Shown here: piece by piece, positions 3,107 to 21,993 of the stretch
How the letters are laid out: each line of letters begins with the position of its first letter
Position numbering within the stretch: position 1 is the first letter of the stretch
Virus record (IMG/VR): IMGVR_UViG_3300030085_002066
Location: 1-28,509 of that record
Direction: 5' to 3' (one strand)
From: a virus
Length of the DNA stretch: 28,509 bases
The notes under the pieces: model-generated
Told to the model about the DNA's origin: nothing
Seen by the model: only the letters and a program-made list of their open reading frames with translations
Databases searched by the model: none
Position numbers and translations under genes: made by a program

Positions 3107-3132
3107 GGCTAATTAATAGAATACCAGACATG

Positions 3133-3201
3133 TAGGAACACTAGCTCAGTGGGGTGAATCCCCCATATTTGCTCAGTTTTCAGCATTCTGGAAATTCACC
3201 C
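3133..3201 (+). promoter_or_regulatory. Leader of the tail tube gene: late motif, hairpin and start-site pairing
   Basis: TAGGAACACTAGC (3133-3145) is identical to the element at 15158-15170 before the scaffold gene. It is followed by a hairpin GGGG/CCCC near 3151-3164 containing GTGAAT, similar to the GTGAT-loop hairpins before the scaffold and capsid genes. GGGTGAAT (3152-3159) is also perfectly complementary to ATTCACCC (3194-3201), which abuts the ATG at 3202, so two mutually exclusive foldings are possible. No Shine-Dalgarno sequence is visible. The regulatory role is inferred. Confidence 0.45.
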
Positions 3202-8396: not shown

Positions 8397-11300
8397 ATGA
8401 TGAATGCTACGGGCAAGATTAAAGTATATATCAATGGAGTAGATTATAGTGATTTTTTGGTCGATGGTTCTGTAAGTGACGATTCTGCATATTCGACAAA
8501 TATAATTACAAGTCGCGGCACTATGAAACTTGCTGGTAGTGCAGATGTTTTAGATTACAATAAAACAAAATTTCCCGTTGGTAGTCTTGTAAGCATTTAT
8601 GTGACACTTAGTAATGGCAAGCTTGCAAAGATGCCAAGAGGTAGTCTTTTAATTTTAGAATCCTCTATCGACATAAAAGAGCCTAGTATTACTTTTGAAC
8701 TTGGCTGTAGCTTGAATTACCTGTCAGCAAGAGAAGCAAATTACGAGTCAGAAATAGAAACATTAATTAATACTTTCATCCCTGCGGACATCAAAAACTC
8801 TTTTGTTATAGAAGAAAAAGATATAGCCACCCTGAATAATTTACTTGATATATCTGGCTTAATTATATTCCAGAATGCTTATGGCACCATACAAAAGGCT
8901 AAAAAGTTTGGCGGCGACGGCATAGGAGCTAATGTAGGTGGTGGTAAATTAGTAAGTTTTGACAAATTCACTACTGTTGATGTTGAAAGCTTGGGCGGTG
9001 CTATCGAAGAATTACCGTCGTCAGTTATTGTGCAGGCATCTGTCGAAATACCTACTTTTGGAAGTGGCACAGGAAGCGGCGGGTCTGGAGCCGGTGCCGA
9101 TGGCAAACCTCCACCGTTTGTTACATCGAGCACTACAAGGACAATTAGAGTTCCTGATGCAGAAGCATTAGATCCTTTTTTTCAGGTTAAAAATATTCCG
9201 AATGCCCCTGAGGCTCAATCTGAAAGTATCCCAGCTTGTGGGTCGATCTCTGATCCTGACTCTCCGTCAGTAGCAAGTTATGGATATACCGTAACAGGCG
9301 AAGTTGTTGCAGTTGAGAGAGAAGTAAAAGAAACAGTAACACAAGGTAGTTACACAAGCTATACAGGCCCAGGCAATCAAGTTGAGTACGAATATGACTT
9401 TGAGCATTCCTCCGCTGGAACATATGCTGGTCCGGTCTTAAATGGACTGCTAAATAAGTATGTTGATGCTATCAATGGAGAGACACAAGAAGCGCAAGCG
9501 ATGTGCGGCAAAGCCAACCAAGCCTTTACGACCCGTGACGACCATAATAGTAGAGAGCAAACAGTTATTTATTTTTATGAAGAAGACGCGAACGGAAATA
9601 GAACCTTAACCAATCAAGAGCTAAGCGAAGAAAGTGAAATCAACGCTAATGCAGCAGAATATTATGCTTGTATTGGTCAGCATTATTTAACTGCTGCCAA
9701 AGGTATTGCAGATGGTGCACAGTTTTTGAGTCGAAATGCTGTAAGCATTGTTGATAATTACTTAAAAAAGTATGGCTATTCTAGTTATAATTTAACACAT
9801 TATTTTTACAACAAAGACGATTCCTTAGCTCAAAAAATTACTAAAAACTATATACATCCTGCTGCTACAAATGCTGCACAAAAGGCTACAAACGGACTGG
9901 TTTATAATAAAACAAATAGATCAACAGGGTTTTTCTTTGATGAAGGAATAAATTATTTTTATGCTACTGGTGAATTTAATTTTTCATCTTTTCGGCTTAC
10001 TGGGCAAACATTTGATGGGTTAGTGTCTGGAGACAGCTTAATAACCTCCCATGACAGTAGAAATTTAGATCCAGAAGGGAGCTTTAACTTATTTTTAGCG
10101 GCAACTACAATAACAAGTTATAAATATGGGAAGTTGTATGTTGAAGAGACTGTTGAATATATTGACCACGAAAGCCCACTTAACAGTTATAAACGTGTAA
10201 ATTATTCATCTACTGGCAGCAAAAACCCTGTAGAGCCTGACCGTATTGAAATACAAAGAGACGCTAATGGAAATATTTACAGCGCTGGCAATAATGCAGG
10301 AGAAAGTAAAACAGAAGAATTAGAATATAAGCAAGCTGTTAACTTAAAAGGTGATTATACATCTGTGCAATCGAGTTGGCTTGGGCAACCAGGACCACAA
10401 GAAAAAATTATCAACTTGCCTATCGATTTTGCACCAATAAGAAGAAAGTTTACCAGCAATGGAACTCCAATTTTTATAAATGTGCAAGCAGAATTATCTC
10501 AATATAAGAAAATCTTAGAGAAATATGCAAAAAACGAAGCCCTGAAAATTGCAGCAGATAATTCCGGTTTTAGAATTACAGAAATAGGCACAAGGGCGGA
10601 GTTATTTGGATACTACCCATATTACCCGATATCTTTAAATCTTTCGAGTTTAGGGAAACGTTACGGCTTAAGAGCAGCGTCTTCTAATTGGGTTTTTGAT
10701 AGAGACAATATATTATGTTCTTTAGATTGTTTCAGGACATCTGAAATAACGTCTAGTGTTGACCAAGACGAAATCAGCCCATACATCTATACAACAATAA
10801 CTAAGGTTGAGGGGGCCTCTACTATTACGACCAACGATGTTAACGTAGCGTCGACGGCAACAAGCATACAGATCAACTCATTGCCTCAATCTGGTACTTT
10901 AACACTCAATGGAAATCCAGTATCTATTGGTGATATCATAAGTATTTCAGATATACAAGCTGGGAATTTAGTTTACACACCCCCTACAAACGATACGACA
11001 CAAGTTTCATTTTCTTATGAAGTTTTAGACACCAATGGCAATCAAATAGGTTCAGGCGACGATATATTTCCTGTTGATCAATATGTCTTCCTAGAAAATA
11101 TTGTTGCCGATGCTGGTGAATTTGACGACAACACATCAGCAGGAGACGCATCGGGTGGCGGTGGAGATTTTGATTTAGGGACAAGACCTGGCGGAAACTA
11201 CAACATGAATGCTGGAGACTTTGATACTGGTGAGGAGGTAGCAGCACTTGAACCGCTGCCTATAGGGCAAGGTAATGCCCAGAACGGCGAAGCGAATGTA

Positions 11301-13168: not shown

Positions 13169-15157
13169 GTGGGTTTACAATTCAGAAGAGGTACTGCAGC
13201 TGATGTAACTTCTGAGAATTTTATCCCTGCTATTGGCGAGCCGGTATATATTACTGATGAAGATAAGTTTTATATTGGCGATGGCGCAACTGTCGGTGGC
13301 AATTTAGTTGGCGGAGCAGGAGATTTAGCAGATTTAACAAATGTACATTTAACTACTGAAGATATTGGTGCTATACAAAGTTATAGCGTGAGCAGTAACA
13401 CTGTAACTATAAATACATCAGAAGGTAATCCTTATGTAGTAAACCAACAAATAACGATCAGCAACGCGGGTGTAGCCACTTTAAACGGTACGCATACAAT
13501 TGTAAGCAAACCAGCCGCTAACCAGTTTTTATTTGAACTGACTACTGCAGACGTATCAAACACTGTTACTACCGGCACAACAACGCCAGTGATTGCTAAC
13601 GGCGAACTCTTGTCGTTCGACTCAACAAATTCTAGATTTACAAATAAAAAACAAAGCGAAGCTATCGGTAAATTATCAAACCACTCAGACGTAGATGGCT
13701 ACGATAGCACCAGCACCGCTCCAAAAAATAACTCTTTAGGTAAGATCCTAAGGTATGACACTGACAACAATTGGAGTCTGAAGCGTCCCGGTGAGGCTAT
13801 AAAAATAACTTCGGGTCAGCATTTTATTGGTGTTGATTTCTCTGCTGGCACTACTGGCAATATTTACACTGGCAACGCATCTGATTGGACTGAAGATACC
13901 ACCAGCTCAACTGGAAACAACGGTACTGACCTTCACTCAGCGAGTCCAGGGTCAATCCCCCCACCACCTTATGGTGATGCGGCTTATGACAGCAATAGTC
14001 ATGACTACAACCCGGTAGGATCATTTACAGACTCAACTGACTTCACTTTAGACTTTTGGTTGTATAAACCCACCGGTAGTGGTGCATGGGTGGACGCAAT
14101 GCTGTTTTACAGCAATAACAGCCCATCTTATAAATTTTTCTACCCTGAATATTCTGGCACTGCACTTAGTTTGTATAGCGCTGCTACCACTAGCGGCACT
14201 GTAAGTATTATTGCTCAAAAGGTAATTGAATGGACTGTTCCTGAGTTACTTGATCAATGGGTTCACGTTTCGATTGTTAGAAAAGGCACAGACTTTAGGG
14301 CTTGGGTGAATGGCGAAGACGAAGGAGCAGGAACGCTGCAAGGGTCGTTTACTTCTGACCATAATTTCTTATTTAGCAGTGCTGGATCGTTTTATTCAAT
14401 CCAATATGAAAACGATACTCGTTTGATTGGACCTCATTATGTAGATCTACAAAAGGCACACCGTGATCCAGCTGGCGGCAACATCGATGTACCAATTGAA
14501 CGTGTCGACTTTAACAACAACAAGTCTGGTGTAAACGTTAGCGAATTACTCGATGTAACAAATAATGCATTTATCGATGGAGATATTCTTACTTATCACC
14601 AGGGTTTATGGACTACCAAAAAACCTACTTATGCAAAACTATTCTACAGGCAAACAACTGCACCAACTAGCACAATTCAGTTTTCAGACAGAATCGGTGA
14701 ATGGACAGGCTTAACAGGCGTTTGGCGAGATATGACGTATGAAAATCTAAGCGATAACAACAACCAAGGGCCAAAGAGTCCCAATAATGATCCAACTCTA
14801 TTACTTGAAGATTCTGTCAGCGGAACTAATACGATAAGTGGTATAACGCCAGGCATTTATCAAATAGACCTTGTTGCTGATTTTGTTTTAAACAATCTTA
14901 GCGCTAATAGTTATAATTCTCATTGGCTTGAAATTTTATTTTCTCAAGGCGCTGGCCTTGATGATGTTGATACTAGGACGCATTTCACGTTCCCTGCTCA
15001 TACAGCAACCAGTACTGCGATTACTTTGACTCAAAAAGCTTCAATTGTGGCATGCGTCACTAGAAGTTCAGCATTTCTTGAATGCAAAATAGATCAAGAA
15101 CAAGGTGCTGATTATTACATCAGCCAAGCAGTATTGTCTGTTTCAAGAATTGGCTGA
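13169..15157 (+). CDS. Tail fibre with anchor domain, LamG-like lectin and C-terminal jelly-roll domain
   Basis: A 662-residue protein with a GTG start (GLQFRRGTAADVTSENFIP). Residues 1-50 match the small N-terminal domain seen in Mtd-type and other fibres, with the RRGTAA...PAIGEPVYITDEDKFYIGDG pattern. It attaches the fibre to the tail. Residues ~285-435 look like a LamG/concanavalin-type lectin domain: DFTLDFWLYKP, VHVSIVRKGTDFRAWVNGE and an HYVDLQKAHRDP ending. Residues ~490-662 are beta-rich and end in YYISQAVLSVSRIG, like a C1q-type jelly-roll receptor domain. The role is host surface recognition. There is no template repeat or reverse transcriptase nearby, so it is not part of a diversity-generating element in this window. 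It lies immediately before the scaffold leader. Confidence 0.75.
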   Translation: MGLQFRRGTAADVTSENFIPAIGEPVYITDEDKFYIGDGATVGGNLVGGAGDLADLTNVHLTTEDIGAIQSYSVSSNTVTINTSEGNPYVVNQQITISNAGVATLNGTHTIVSKPAANQFLFELTTADVSNTVTTGTTTPVIANGELLSFDSTNSRFTNKKQSEAIGKLSNHSDVDGYDSTSTAPKNNSLGKILRYDTDNNWSLKRPGEAIKITSGQHFIGVDFSAGTTGNIYTGNASDWTEDTTSSTGNNGTDLHSASPGSIPPPPYGDAAYDSNSHDYNPVGSFTDSTDFTLDFWLYKPTGSGAWVDAMLFYSNNSPSYKFFYPEYSGTALSLYSAATTSGTVSIIAQKVIEWTVPELLDQWVHVSIVRKGTDFRAWVNGEDEGAGTLQGSFTSDHNFLFSSAGSFYSIQYENDTRLIGPHYVDLQKAHRDPAGGNIDVPIERVDFNNNKSGVNVSELLDVTNNAFIDGDILTYHQGLWTTKKPTYAKLFYRQTTAPTSTIQFSDRIGEWTGLTGVWRDMTYENLSDNNNQGPKSPNNDPTLLLEDSVSGTNTISGITPGIYQIDLVADFVLNNLSANSYNSHWLEILFSQGAGLDDVDTRTHFTFPAHTATSTAITLTQKASIVACVTRSSAFLECKIDQEQGADYYISQAVLSVSRIG

Positions 15158-15193
15158 TAGGAACACTAGCGCGTCAACTAGGGAGTGATTCCC
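15158..15193 (+). promoter_or_regulatory. Leader of the scaffold gene: late motif plus GTGAT-loop hairpin
   Basis: TAGGAACACTAGC (15158-15170) is identical to the tube-gene element. Ten bases later GGGA-GTGAT-TCCC (15181-15193) forms a small hairpin whose pentaloop matches both hairpins in the capsid leader. No Shine-Dalgarno sequence precedes ATG 15201. Role inferred: promoter plus RNA control element. Confidence 0.5.
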
Positions 15194-15200
15194 GTTTACC

Positions 15201-15938
15201 ATGTCTGAAGAAAACACCAAAGCCCCCGAGATGGAGGCTGGCGGCACAGATCCTGTCAATCAGCCTAGTGCTGATGAGAAGTCTCAATACAGCCCTGATG
15301 AGGTAGCAAACCTTGTCAAAGCTTTGCGTTCTGAACGTGAAGCGCGTAAAACTTACGAGCGTCAATTCAAAGAGAAAGAAGCACAGCTTCTCAAGCTAAA
15401 AGATGTTGATCTAGACCGGTATCAACAACTGGAAGCAGATGCTGCTCGTGCTGCTGAAATTGAATCCCGCTATGGCGAATCAATTCAAGCAATCGAGGAA
15501 AAGTATGGTCGACTAGCAGCTGAAGCTGAAACCAAGGCAAAAAAGGCAGAGACTCAAGTATTTGAGTTTCAAAAAAAATACGCATTGGAAAAGGTTTTCC
15601 ATGCCGCTGGTGGTCGTACTGATGCTGCAGATGGCGTATCGTTCTTTGATATGTTTGCAGAGCAGCTTAGCAATCGTTTCCGTCAGGAATTTGATGGCAG
15701 CCTGACTGTTGTTGATGCACAGGGTGATCCAGTTTTAGATCCAGAATCTGGCAAGCGATTATCTCCTGATGATTTTGTTGCCAGCTACAAGTCTCACCCT
15801 ATTTATGGCACTTTCTTCAAAGGTGTTAAGGGCTCTGGGGCTGGTCTTAACTATGCAGGTACGGATGCAAATGGCATGCCTGTAGAAGATTTGTCACAAC
15901 TGTCTCGCGAAGAATTATTCTTGCGAGCATTCGGTTGA
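15201..15938 (+). CDS. Capsid scaffolding protein
   Basis: A 245-residue protein directly before the capsid gene. The N-terminal ~35 residues are acidic, Pro/Gln-rich and disordered in appearance. Residues ~37-130 are a highly charged coiled coil (Glu, Lys, Arg and Ala heptads). The C-terminal part contains YALEKVFHAAGGRTDAADG and a short compact tail ending in REELFLRAFG. This is the standard build of phage scaffolds, which template procapsid assembly and leave or are degraded before DNA packaging. No Ser-His protease motif is present, so it does not look like a fused maturation protease, and none is seen elsewhere in the window. A terminator follows at 15945. Confidence 0.8.
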   Translation: MSEENTKAPEMEAGGTDPVNQPSADEKSQYSPDEVANLVKALRSEREARKTYERQFKEKEAQLLKLKDVDLDRYQQLEADAARAAEIESRYGESIQAIEEKYGRLAAEAETKAKKAETQVFEFQKKYALEKVFHAAGGRTDAADGVSFFDMFAEQLSNRFRQEFDGSLTVVDAQGDPVLDPESGKRLSPDDFVASYKSHPIYGTFFKGVKGSGAGLNYAGTDANGMPVEDLSQLSREELFLRAFG

Positions 15939-15944
15939 GATCCC

Positions 15945-15964
15945 AAGCCCCGAAAGGGGCTTTT
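15945..15964 (+). terminator. Rho-independent terminator after the scaffold gene
   Basis: AAGCCCC (15945-15951) pairs with GGGGCTT (15956-15962) around a GAAA tetraloop, followed by a short T run. It should reduce scaffold transcript read-through into the capsid gene. Confidence 0.8.
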
Positions 15965-15966
15965 AT

Positions 15967-15999
15967 GTTGGGAAGCATATAATTTCGGAATTATATGTT
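15967..15999 (+). promoter_or_regulatory. Candidate capsid promoter with palindrome over a TATAAT box
   Basis: GTTGGGAA (15967-15974) recurs at 17081-17088, also just after a terminator. TATAAT sits at 15978-15983 within a perfect inverted repeat: CATATAATT (15976-15984), TCGG, AATTATATG (15989-15997). No good -35 hexamer is visible at normal spacing. The palindrome could be an operator over the promoter or a stabilising 5' hairpin, depending on the true transcript start. Confidence 0.5.
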
Positions 16000-16003
16000 A
16001 GAA

Positions 16004-16072
16004 AGCACCCGGTTTTGACTGGCCGTGATGGTTAGCAGGCAGGGTGTTCCGACTATGGGCGTGATGCCTGTA
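16004..16072 (+). promoter_or_regulatory. Structured leader RNA of the capsid gene with two GTGAT-loop hairpins
   Basis: Stem AGCACCC (16004-16010) with GGGTGTT (16042-16048, one G-U pair) encloses hairpin CTGGCC-GTGAT-GGTTAG (16019-16035, two G-U pairs). A second hairpin TATGGGC-GTGAT-GCCTGTA (16054-16072, two G-U pairs) follows. Both pentaloops equal the one before the scaffold gene. CAGGCA (16036-16041) can alternatively pair with TGCCTG (16065-16070), opening the second hairpin. Seen by hand folding only. Confidence 0.5.
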
Positions 16073-16117
16073 TCGTGTTTCACCTTTCCTTTTATTTTCT
16101 GACCACAAGGAGTCAAA

Positions 16118-17017
16118 ATGGCACTTAATCTTTCCGAGGCTAAAAAGCACTCTCGGAACCCACAGGAACTGGCAATCGTAACCGAATTAGCTGCCGGTCC
16201 TCTCCTGTCGGTTCTCCCCTTCCGCGAAATTCAGGGCAACGGTCTGTTCTGGAAGCGTGAAGAGAATCTCGGCGACGTTGGTTTCCGTAACTACAACGCT
16301 AGCTATACCGAAAGCTACGCTGAAGTTAGCCAGCACTCTGAGAGTCTGCGCCTTTTCGGCGGTGATATCAAAATTGATAAAGCCATCCTCGACCTTGAAG
16401 GTAACGATTCTCGCGCCTATCAGGTTCAGTCCAAGACTCGCGCAATGCGTCTGTCCTGGGAGTCCCTGTTCATTAATGGCGATTCGAACCAGTCTCCTTC
16501 CGAGTTCGACGGTCTGGCTGCTCGCTTACCTGCTGCTGACCACGCTACCAACTCTCAGGTGATCCGCAACAGCTCTTCTGCTGCTACTCTGGATCTCGGC
16601 GCTCTCGACGAAGCCATTGATGCTGTGGATGCCAACGGCGGCACCAAGTATCTGGTGATGTCTAAGTCTGCACGTCGTCACCTGACCACCAAGGCTCGCG
16701 CTTCCGCTCAGATCGACATCGCTCGTAACGAGTTCGGCTACCAGCAAATGGTGTATGCCGGTCTGCCTGTGATCGAACTGGATCGCGACCATCAGAACGC
16801 TGCAATCCTCGACAGCACTGTCGCTGATCAGTCCATCTACGTTGTAACCTTCGGCAACGACACCCTGACCGGTATCCAGAACGGCGGTATTCAGGTCCGT
16901 GACCTGGGTGAGTCCACGACTTCTCCTCAAGTCATCGTTCGTGTTGAGTGGTATTGCGGTTTAGCTCTGGTTAACGGCCGTGCAGTTGCTCGCCTGACCA
17001 ACGTTGACGCCAGCTGA
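16118..17017 (+). CDS. Major capsid protein, HK97 fold
   Basis: A 299-residue protein with an AAGGAG ribosome site 5 bases before ATG 16118. It fits HK97-fold capsid proteins of this size class: an N-terminal helix and arm, an E-loop-like segment (~45-75), a SWESLFINGD segment, the P-domain helix (LDLGALDEAIDAV), and a C-terminal A-domain with FGYQQMVYAGLPVIELD, SIYVVTFGNDTLTGIQNGG, VRDLGE and RVEWYCGLALVNGRAVARL. These last blocks are typical of phage coat proteins. Codon use is strongly biased to C-ending and CTG/CGT codons, as in the tube and decoration-like genes. Scaffold lies upstream and strong terminators lie on both sides. The gene sits downstream of the tape measure and tip genes, which is an unusual order. 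Confidence 0.9.
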   Translation: MALNLSEAKKHSRNPQELAIVTELAAGPLLSVLPFREIQGNGLFWKREENLGDVGFRNYNASYTESYAEVSQHSESLRLFGGDIKIDKAILDLEGNDSRAYQVQSKTRAMRLSWESLFINGDSNQSPSEFDGLAARLPAADHATNSQVIRNSSSAATLDLGALDEAIDAVDANGGTKYLVMSKSARRHLTTKARASAQIDIARNEFGYQQMVYAGLPVIELDRDHQNAAILDSTVADQSIYVVTFGNDTLTGIQNGGIQVRDLGESTTSPQVIVRVEWYCGLALVNGRAVARLTNVDAS

Positions 17018-20742: not shown

Positions 20743-21993
20743 ATGGCTAACACCATCAAGCTAAGGCGTTCAGCAACGTCTGGAGCGACTCCTACTACGT
20801 CTCAGCTTGCTCTAGGCGAAGTAGCGATGAACACTTACGATGGTAAGTTGTTCTTAAAAACTGATCAATCAGGTACTGAAGCGATTGTCGAAGTCGGCAG
20901 TGATGCTTCGGCTATTGTCAGTGGCACTTTAGCTGTAGATAGAGGTGGGTCAGGTCAGACCAGCTATACAAACGGTCAATTACTAATTGGTAATAGCACA
21001 GGAAATACACTCAGCAAAGCAACCCTTACGGCAGGCTCTGGCGTTTCGATTACGAACGGCAATGGCAGCATTGAGATCAGTGCCACAGGAGCCGGCGGCA
21101 CCGTAACTAGCGTTAATGTTGCTGGTGGAACCGGCTTGTCATCATCTGGCGGCCCAGTTACTGGCAGCGGAACAATCACCCTTGATCTTGACAACACCGC
21201 AGTAACTGCCGGAAGCTACACCGCAGCCGACATCACCGTTGATGCACAAGGTCGAATCACTGCCGCTTCATCAGGCACGATCGGCACCTCCGAGATTGCC
21301 AACGATGCTGTAACAGCTGATAAATTGGCCAACACGAGTGTCACGGCTGGCAGCTACACAGCGGCAGACATCACTGTTGATGCTCAGGGTCGAATTACTG
21401 CTGCAGCGGCAGGCACAATCGGCACTAGCGAAATTGCTAACGACGCCGTAACGGCTGATAAATTGGCCAACACAAGTGTGACGGCTGGTAGTTATACAGC
21501 TGCTGATATTACGGTTGACGCGCAAGGCAGAATCACCTCTGCAGCATCAGGAACTATTGGAACAAGTGAAATTGCTAACGATGCTGTAACCGCAGATAAA
21601 CTTTCAAACACTTCTGTCACTGCTGGCAGCTATACCTTGAGCAGCATCACAGTTGATGCCCAGGGCAGAATCACAGCGGCGTCTAGCGGCACAGCTGGAA
21701 GTGCAGACAAGATCACAGAGGGCAACACTGAAGCCGAGGTTGTTGATACAGGTTCAAATGGTCATTTTAAAATTAAGACAGAAGGCGTCGAACGTATTAG
21801 AGTAGGACCAGCTGGGCAGATTGGAATTGCTGGGGCTAATTACGGTACAACTGGTCAACTTTTATCTAGCGGAGGGTCTTCAGGTGTCGTAGCCTGGGTC
21901 GATCCTATTATTGTTGTGGATGGAGGGAATTTCGCCACCGGCGGTTCTCTTGCCACTTCATCTACTGCTATTAACGGAGGATTATTCAACTAA
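20743..21993 (+). CDS. Tail fibre protein with 46-residue repeats
   Basis: A 416-residue protein with AAGGGAG before ATG 20743. Residues 1-52 are an anchor domain (IKLRRSATSGATPTTSQLALG...). A Gly/Ser-rich linker with GGTVTSVNVAGGTGL leads to three full and one partial 46-residue repeats (residues ~151-320), each with NTSVTAGSYTAADITVDAQG and IGTSEIANDAVTADKL. A final GNTEAEVVDTGSNGHFKIKT and IRVGPAGQIGIAG segment resembles shaft-end modules of other fibres. It ends with IIVVDGGNFATGG and AINGGLFN, related to the endings of the two previous fibre proteins. Repeats differ mostly at synonymous sites. Likely a long thin fibre whose length depends on repeat number. Confidence 0.7.
   Translation: MANTIKLRRSATSGATPTTSQLALGEVAMNTYDGKLFLKTDQSGTEAIVEVGSDASAIVSGTLAVDRGGSGQTSYTNGQLLIGNSTGNTLSKATLTAGSGVSITNGNGSIEISATGAGGTVTSVNVAGGTGLSSSGGPVTGSGTITLDLDNTAVTAGSYTAADITVDAQGRITAASSGTIGTSEIANDAVTADKLANTSVTAGSYTAADITVDAQGRITAAAAGTIGTSEIANDAVTADKLANTSVTAGSYTAADITVDAQGRITSAASGTIGTSEIANDAVTADKLSNTSVTAGSYTLSSITVDAQGRITAASSGTAGSADKITEGNTEAEVVDTGSNGHFKIKTEGVERIRVGPAGQIGIAGANYGTTGQLLSSGGSSGVVAWVDPIIVVDGGNFATGGSLATSSTAINGGLFN
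21193..21699 (+). repeat. 138-bp coding tandem repeats within the fibre gene
   Basis: Units begin at 21193, 21331, 21469 and 21607, each 138 bp (46 codons); the fourth is partial and diverges after about 93 bp. Proteins of units 1-3 are almost identical while the DNA differs at many third codon positions. A single related copy lies in the neighbouring fibre at 19281. Confidence 0.85.

Follow-up and report, generated by a model that had tools for sequence, protein, structure and literature searches.

A candidate cis-regulatory hairpin common to the scaffold and capsid mRNAs of tailed phages, with a predicted two-state capsid leader and the scaffolding protein as proposed factor

The mRNAs for the scaffolding protein and the major capsid protein of a marine Synechococcus siphophage, and of many of its relatives, appear to carry a common cis-regulatory hairpin; on balance we favor this reading, in which the capsid leader would be a two-state RNA and the scaffolding protein is proposed as the acting factor. 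For a capsid to assemble correctly, scaffold and capsid protein must be present in a fixed ratio, and it is known for few tailed phages how this ratio is set. The leader element, a short hairpin with a G-N-G-A-Y loop (GNGAY), appears to be an undescribed means of keeping the two shell proteins in balance. It is kept in phages of cyanobacteria, Pseudomonas, Bordetella, Xanthomonas and Rhodobacter, with another loop in a sister group. If our reading is correct, a loop-coded element on both mRNAs would be a general and testable answer to the setting of the ratio, and the loops with their readers would form a new set of orthogonal protein-RNA pairs.

Results

The viral DNA analysed here (a 28.5 kb stretch, hereafter the window) is from a marine Synechococcus siphophage of the S-CBS2/S-CRES type. 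The nearest named phages by capsid protein are the Synechococcus siphophages S-CRES1-3 and S-CBS2 (68-70% identical), the capsid of Prochlorococcus phage P-SS2 is 49% identical, and megablast for the DNA of the nearest phage gave no match to the window. On the plus strand, which also carries the leader elements described below, the gene for the head scaffolding protein (15201..15938; phrog_206, PHROGs 2e-24) is followed by that for the major capsid protein (16118..17017; phrog_212, PHROGs 1.4e-73). We drew capsid homologues from IMG/VR by protein similarity alone and not by hairpin, so that the leaders were not selected for hairpins, and obtained 107 distinct capsid leaders and 99 scaffold leaders. 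Two leaders of the window-phage type lie in contigs binned as Proteobacteria or Bacteroidetes MAGs, which are probably mis-binned virus contigs. Elsewhere in the window, a tail-fibre-like gene contains three direct repeats of 168 nt with 138-nt spacing (21192-21635).

An initial annotation of the window had singled out three hairpins with differing stems and a constant GTGAT loop, GGGA-GTGAT-TCCC before the scaffold gene (15181..15193) and CTGGCC-GTGAT-GGTTAG (HP1, 16019..16035) and TATGGGC-GTGAT-GCCTGTA (HP2, 16054..16072) before the capsid gene, and had taken this combination as the signature of an RNA hairpin recognised by a protein. All three are found at exactly these positions and are the only plus-strand GNGAY hairpins with at least four pairs in the window. 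As permuted-loop controls yielded a mean of 1.7 hairpins per window, the count in one genome alone is little proof. Among the homologues, a G-N-G-A-N pentaloop hairpin with at least three pairs was present at both the HP1 and the HP2 position in 107/107 capsid leaders, and a GNGAN hairpin (at least three pairs) in 92/99 scaffold leaders; for most of the other seven scaffold leaders the automatic choice of ATG was wrong, and in several the hairpin sequence is still visible. In the window and in its cyanophage relatives, a single genome carries GNGAN hairpins ahead of both the scaffold and the capsid gene. Because these counts relied on the loop pattern, we also ranked all hairpin loops without it, and GnGAn came out first by far (102/107 capsid and 94/99 scaffold leaders), with the runner-up class occurring in 19 capsid and 10 scaffold leaders.

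The HP1 loops of the 107 capsid leaders are GTGAT, GAGAT, GAGAC and GTGAC, rarely GAGAA or GAGAG, and HP2 additionally uses GCGAT, GCGAC, GTGAG and others. What is invariant in the homologues is thus the loop class, GNGAY, and not strictly GTGAT as had been supposed. Compensatory stem changes accompany this invariant loop class in hundreds of homologues of the scaffold and capsid genes, in line with the contrast between variable stems and conserved loop that had drawn attention to the hairpins. The comparison of related capsid leaders that the initial annotation had called for accordingly turned up the expected compensatory changes, around a GNGAY loop rather than an unvarying GTGAT. RNAalifold closes the loop by a G-Y pair, so that the motif may instead be an NGA triloop with G-U or G-C as its closing pair. 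Pairing of the GUGAU loop with a downstream AUCAC was rejected as the cause of loop constancy, because leaders with GAGAC and GAGAT loops keep the same 3' ATCACCC.

In the window the scaffold-leader hairpin ends 7 nt before the ATG, and in the 92 scaffold leaders with a hairpin the distance from its 3' end to the ATG is 1-10 nt (median 7), with a Shine-Dalgarno-like motif in the intervening segment in 0/92. In these 92 leaders the hairpin therefore adjoins the translation start, the arrangement of RNA-phage operators, which overlap or adjoin the start. The stems are freely rewritten (CAGGC/GCCTG, CAGGG/CCCTG, GAGCA/TGCTC, CGGGT/GCCCG, CCAAGG/CCTTGG), and about 13 nt separate the hairpin from an upstream promoter motif (see below).

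The capsid leader holds, besides HP1 and HP2, a helix P1 whose 5' strand AGCACCC (16004..16010) pairs with the central strand GGGTGTT (16042..16048) and whose inner four pairs are kept in 50/50 aligned leaders; P1, HP1 and HP2 together constitute state A. A blind scan of all column pairs in the 50 aligned capsid leaders returned stem pairs of HP1 and HP2 as the top covarying pairs, the strongest being those of HP1, and compensatory changes are seen in HP2. State A has 89.4% paired cells compared to 71.4% in shuffled alignments and 151 double changes compared to 50.5, with 0/500 shuffles reaching the observed pairing, although such shuffles, like the permutations used below, only partly remove the relatedness among the leaders. 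A mini-hairpin H0 (5' CCC with the following GGG) is paired in about half of the cells and is not claimed.

The same leader can form a second set of helices (state B). The invariant GGGTG of the central strand has alternative partners, the 5' CACCC (P1) or a 3' CACC (16081..16084), with which it forms helix P3, paired in 99.2% of cells. Helix P4 joins the right strand of HP1, together with the bases that follow, to the segment immediately preceding the Shine-Dalgarno: in the window GGTTAG (16030-16035) pairs with the anti-HP1 strand CTGACC (16099..16104), ahead of the Shine-Dalgarno-like AAGGAG of the capsid gene (16107..16112, read directly), and elsewhere the pairs are GACAAAGG/TCTTTGTC, GAAGTTG/CAACTTC and AGTTGGAC/GTTCAACT. 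P4 pairing in 68 leaders beats 300/300 permutations. Both members of each mutually exclusive pair, P1 versus P3 and HP1 versus P4, are conserved. In ensemble folding the probability of HP1 was 0.89 for the 5' prefix but 0.16 for the whole leader; when the 3' end was dinucleotide-shuffled it was 0.70, the natural leader being lower in 65/68 cases. Likewise, prefixes of the window leader are predicted to adopt state A up to about 100 nt and the full leader to adopt state B. Bistability of the capsid leader, as predicted by folding and by the conserved alternative helices, is well supported; this two-state nature is absent from the initial annotation. In the window, the unpaired probability of the Shine-Dalgarno and AUG is 0.11 in the free leader and 0.54 with HP1 and HP2 enforced. 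Over the 107 leaders, state A makes the Shine-Dalgarno more open in 29 and less open in 6, so that the effect, though clear in the window, does not hold generally, and with this mixed outcome the sign of regulation is, unlike bistability, not well supported.

The scaffold and tail-tube leaders had also been reported to share a 13-mer, TAGGAACACTAGC. It is present at 3133-3145 and 15158-15170, but corresponds to a late-promoter-like motif, TWGGNANNNTA, that many hairpin-less genes have as well, and we rejected it as part of an RNA operator. The motif occurs before the scaffold gene (ATAGGAACACTAG, 15157..15169, containing most of the shared 13-mer; found in 83 distinct scaffold leaders), the capsid gene (TTCGGAATTATAT, 15984..15996), the tube gene and other structural genes. 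Its sites in the window start at 3132, 15157, 15984 and 19250 and have no evident -35 box; the motif could be a target of the sigma factors, annotated SigF, that S-CBS2 and S-CRES2 encode. Among the leaders listed with the motif, GNGAY hairpins are found in those of scaffold and capsid genes, and many other genes have the same promoter and no hairpin, the exceptions being a GTGAA hairpin in the tube leader of S-CRES2 and a weak hairpin ahead of gp011 in S-CBS2. Among the isolates checked, the former (CGGGCC-GTGAA-GGTCCG, in the leader at 8835-8913 of S-CRES2) is the only clear case of a GNGAN hairpin located elsewhere than in a scaffold or capsid leader. Between the scaffold and capsid genes of the window lies an intrinsic-terminator-like hairpin, AAGCCCCGAAAGGGGCTTTT (15945..15964, read directly), and similar ones lie in many relatives.

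The hairpin before the tail-tube gene, GGGG-TGAAT-CCCC (3151..3163), had been regarded as a near copy of the three. We rejected it as a member of the family: its loop, TGAAT, differs and is complementary to ATTCA (3194-3198), so that it resembles a pseudoknot, and homologues do not keep a GNGAY loop there. The ATTCA partner immediately precedes ATG 3202, which, rather than GTG 3154, is probably the true start, and the tube leaders of S-CBS2 and S-CRES3 have a similar complementarity between loop and downstream sequence (GACTA/TAGTC).

The loop class extends beyond cyanophages. The capsid of Pseudomonas phage YuA shares about 30% identity with that of the window, and this phage carries TGGCGG-GTGAT-CCGCCG before its scaffold gene and both GGA-GTGAT-TCC and CCGG-GTGAT-CCGG before its capsid gene. 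In YuA-like sequences from IMG/VR, a GnGAn hairpin with at least four pairs is present in 57/72 capsid leaders and 31/56 scaffold regions, and the probability of HP1 is 0.70 in the prefix, 0.18 in the complete leader and 0.49 with a shuffled 3' end. Among phages fetched afterwards, Bordetella phage CN2 and Rhodobacter phage RcRudolph have GNGAN hairpins in both leaders and Xanthomonas phage Mallos has one in its capsid leader. A covariance model of the cyanophage leaders found P-SS2 weakly and did not find the YuA leaders, and a single model spanning both groups was therefore rejected. Cyanophage and YuA leaders cannot be aligned over their full length, so the two groups may have inherited one leader that was later rearranged or may have converged on one loop. 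Upstream of its scaffold gene, which belongs to phrog_233, Gordonia phage Dogfish has three five-pair GNGAN hairpins within 211 nt, and it might represent a further branch of the hairpin family.

In a sister set, hairpins with GGT or GGG triloops (GGK) occupy both leaders: the Dolichocephalovirinae phiCbK, Bajun, Kikimora and BL47, and RcXuper-like phages. In Mwe-JY26 and EliS-L02 such hairpins were seen before the scaffold gene only. The stems of the GGT/GGG hairpins are variable, and phiCbK and Bajun carry two in the scaffold leader.

Discussion

We propose that a single factor, most likely encoded by the phage, recognises the G-N-G-A-Y loop of the short hairpin. On the scaffold mRNA the hairpin would lie inside the ribosome footprint at the AUG, so that bound factor would block translation. 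On the capsid mRNA, the 5' part would fold during synthesis into state A (P1 and HP1, then HP2); once the 3' part arrives, GGGTG would leave the 5' CACCC for the 3' CACC (P3), and the right strand of HP1 would pair immediately ahead of the Shine-Dalgarno (P4), so that state B results. Factor holding HP1 and HP2 would keep the leader in state A, with the ribosome landing site freer. With factor free in excess, then, less scaffold would be made, and capsid output would rise or stay level. Our evidence, comparative throughout, covers the hairpins and their loop class, the covariation and alternative helices, the predicted bistability and the restriction to two genes; binding, the identity of the factor, the transcript ends, the co-transcriptional order and the sign of regulation are steps that we infer. 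In its widest form, which we put forward tentatively at somewhat short of even odds, one phage-encoded assembly protein would read the same hairpin on its own and the capsid mRNA and set the scaffold-to-capsid ratio, an arrangement conserved in cyanobacterial and proteobacterial tailed phages, with distinct loop codes, GNGAY and GGK, in at least two lineages, as co-evolution of protein and RNA would predict.

Whether the reader would come from phage or host had been left undecided in the initial annotation. RcRudolph (GNGAY) and RcXuper (GGK) list the identical host strain, Rhodobacter capsulatus YW1, and as one strain supports phages of either loop class a host protein is an unlikely reader, and a phage-encoded one is probable. 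A ubiquitous bacterial protein could in principle give conserved recognition, but loop class does not track host phylum either (GNGAY in Synechococcus phages, GGK in Microcystis phage Mwe-JY26), and we regard a host RNA-binding protein as a most improbable reader. We consider it very improbable, too, that the hairpins serve only to protect abundant mRNAs from ribonuclease attack at their 5' ends. The position of P1 within a few nt of the 5' end of the capsid mRNA, as predicted from the promoter-like motif, would suit such a role, but stabilisation needs neither a fixed loop class in three places nor a conserved fold that removes HP1, and in the scaffold leader the hairpin is set back from the promoter motif by the spacing given above. 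Modification of RNA polymerase, in the manner of N/boxB or HK022 put, for passage of the terminator between the scaffold and capsid genes is highly improbable in our view: GNRA-like loops just downstream of phage promoters, the terminator-like hairpin itself and a protein annotated SPT5 in the S-CRES phages speak for it, but the late promoter motif before hairpin-less operons argues against a general antitermination signal, as do the closeness of the scaffold hairpin to the start codon and the promoter-like motif of the capsid gene's own.

As to which phage protein reads the loops, the scaffolding protein is our leading candidate, proposed with less than even confidence, and a reading by the capsid protein or another phage RNA-binding protein within the same architecture is a possibility to which we give roughly one chance in three. 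All scaffold proteins examined from phages with hairpins in both leaders match phrog_206, and Unity (phrog_2303 scaffold) and Rowa (phrog_4708) have close capsids but other scaffold families and lack the hairpins, which argues against the capsid. On the other hand, the elements accompany capsid genes of phrog_212 as well as scaffold genes, and phrog_206 does not suffice, since B1VFA, PhiR41 and a Klebsiella prophage have scaffolds of this type without such hairpins. Loop class and capsid similarity do not go together: the capsids of cyanophages match the GGK group at 1e-39 to 1e-52 and the YuA group at 1e-16 to 1e-27, whereas the window scaffold, in single-sequence phmmer searches, matches scaffolds of the YuA group only and not those of the GGK group. 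Profile comparison shows the three scaffold groups to be homologous and about equally distant, so that this correspondence is suggestive only and is weakened as proof that the scaffold is the reader. The modelled scaffold protein is acidic (net -13), with no recognisable RNA-binding fold and no PDB match with E of at most 0.001, features that would fit another reader; we treat the structure as uninformative on RNA binding.

Searches of Rfam with the window and six relatives gave no relevant match at the curated gathering score, and the open-access literature, subscription papers being mostly outside the scope of the search, held no earlier description of the hairpin element. In lambda-type N/boxB antitermination, too, a pentaloop hairpin lies near a phage promoter, and its loop is GNRA-like. 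Here, however, the loop is GNGAY/GNGAN and not GNRNA, the hairpins are confined to the scaffold and capsid leaders rather than marking operon starts (other late genes with the same promoter have none), and the scaffold hairpin abuts a start codon. The leaders of ribosomal-protein genes and of lambda cIII are protein-responsive or two-state mRNA leaders that control translation, a mode of control predicted here as well, but they are unrelated in sequence and structure. The manA and wcaG RNAs of T4-like cyanophages are structured 5' leaders that precede metabolic genes (PMC2864571). They resemble the present element as structured RNA in a cyanophage 5' leader and differ in the metabolic genes that they precede; neither was matched here.

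The scaffolding protein of phage P22 autoregulates its synthesis. Our search of the open-access literature found none on this autoregulation, and we know of no shared GNGAY hairpin in P22. The likeness lies in a proposed post-transcriptional response of scaffold synthesis to free scaffold protein; in the phages described here the capsid gene would also be wired in. With the coat-protein operators of the RNA phages MS2, PP7 and Qbeta the element shares a short hairpin at the start codon, a conserved loop and a proposed reader that is a virion-assembly protein. By contrast with those operators, it belongs to dsDNA tailed phages whose capsid is a tailed-phage head protein (phrog_212) and not an RNA-phage-type coat protein, it has a different loop and occurs in several copies on two genes, and in the capsid leader it adds a predicted two-state switch.
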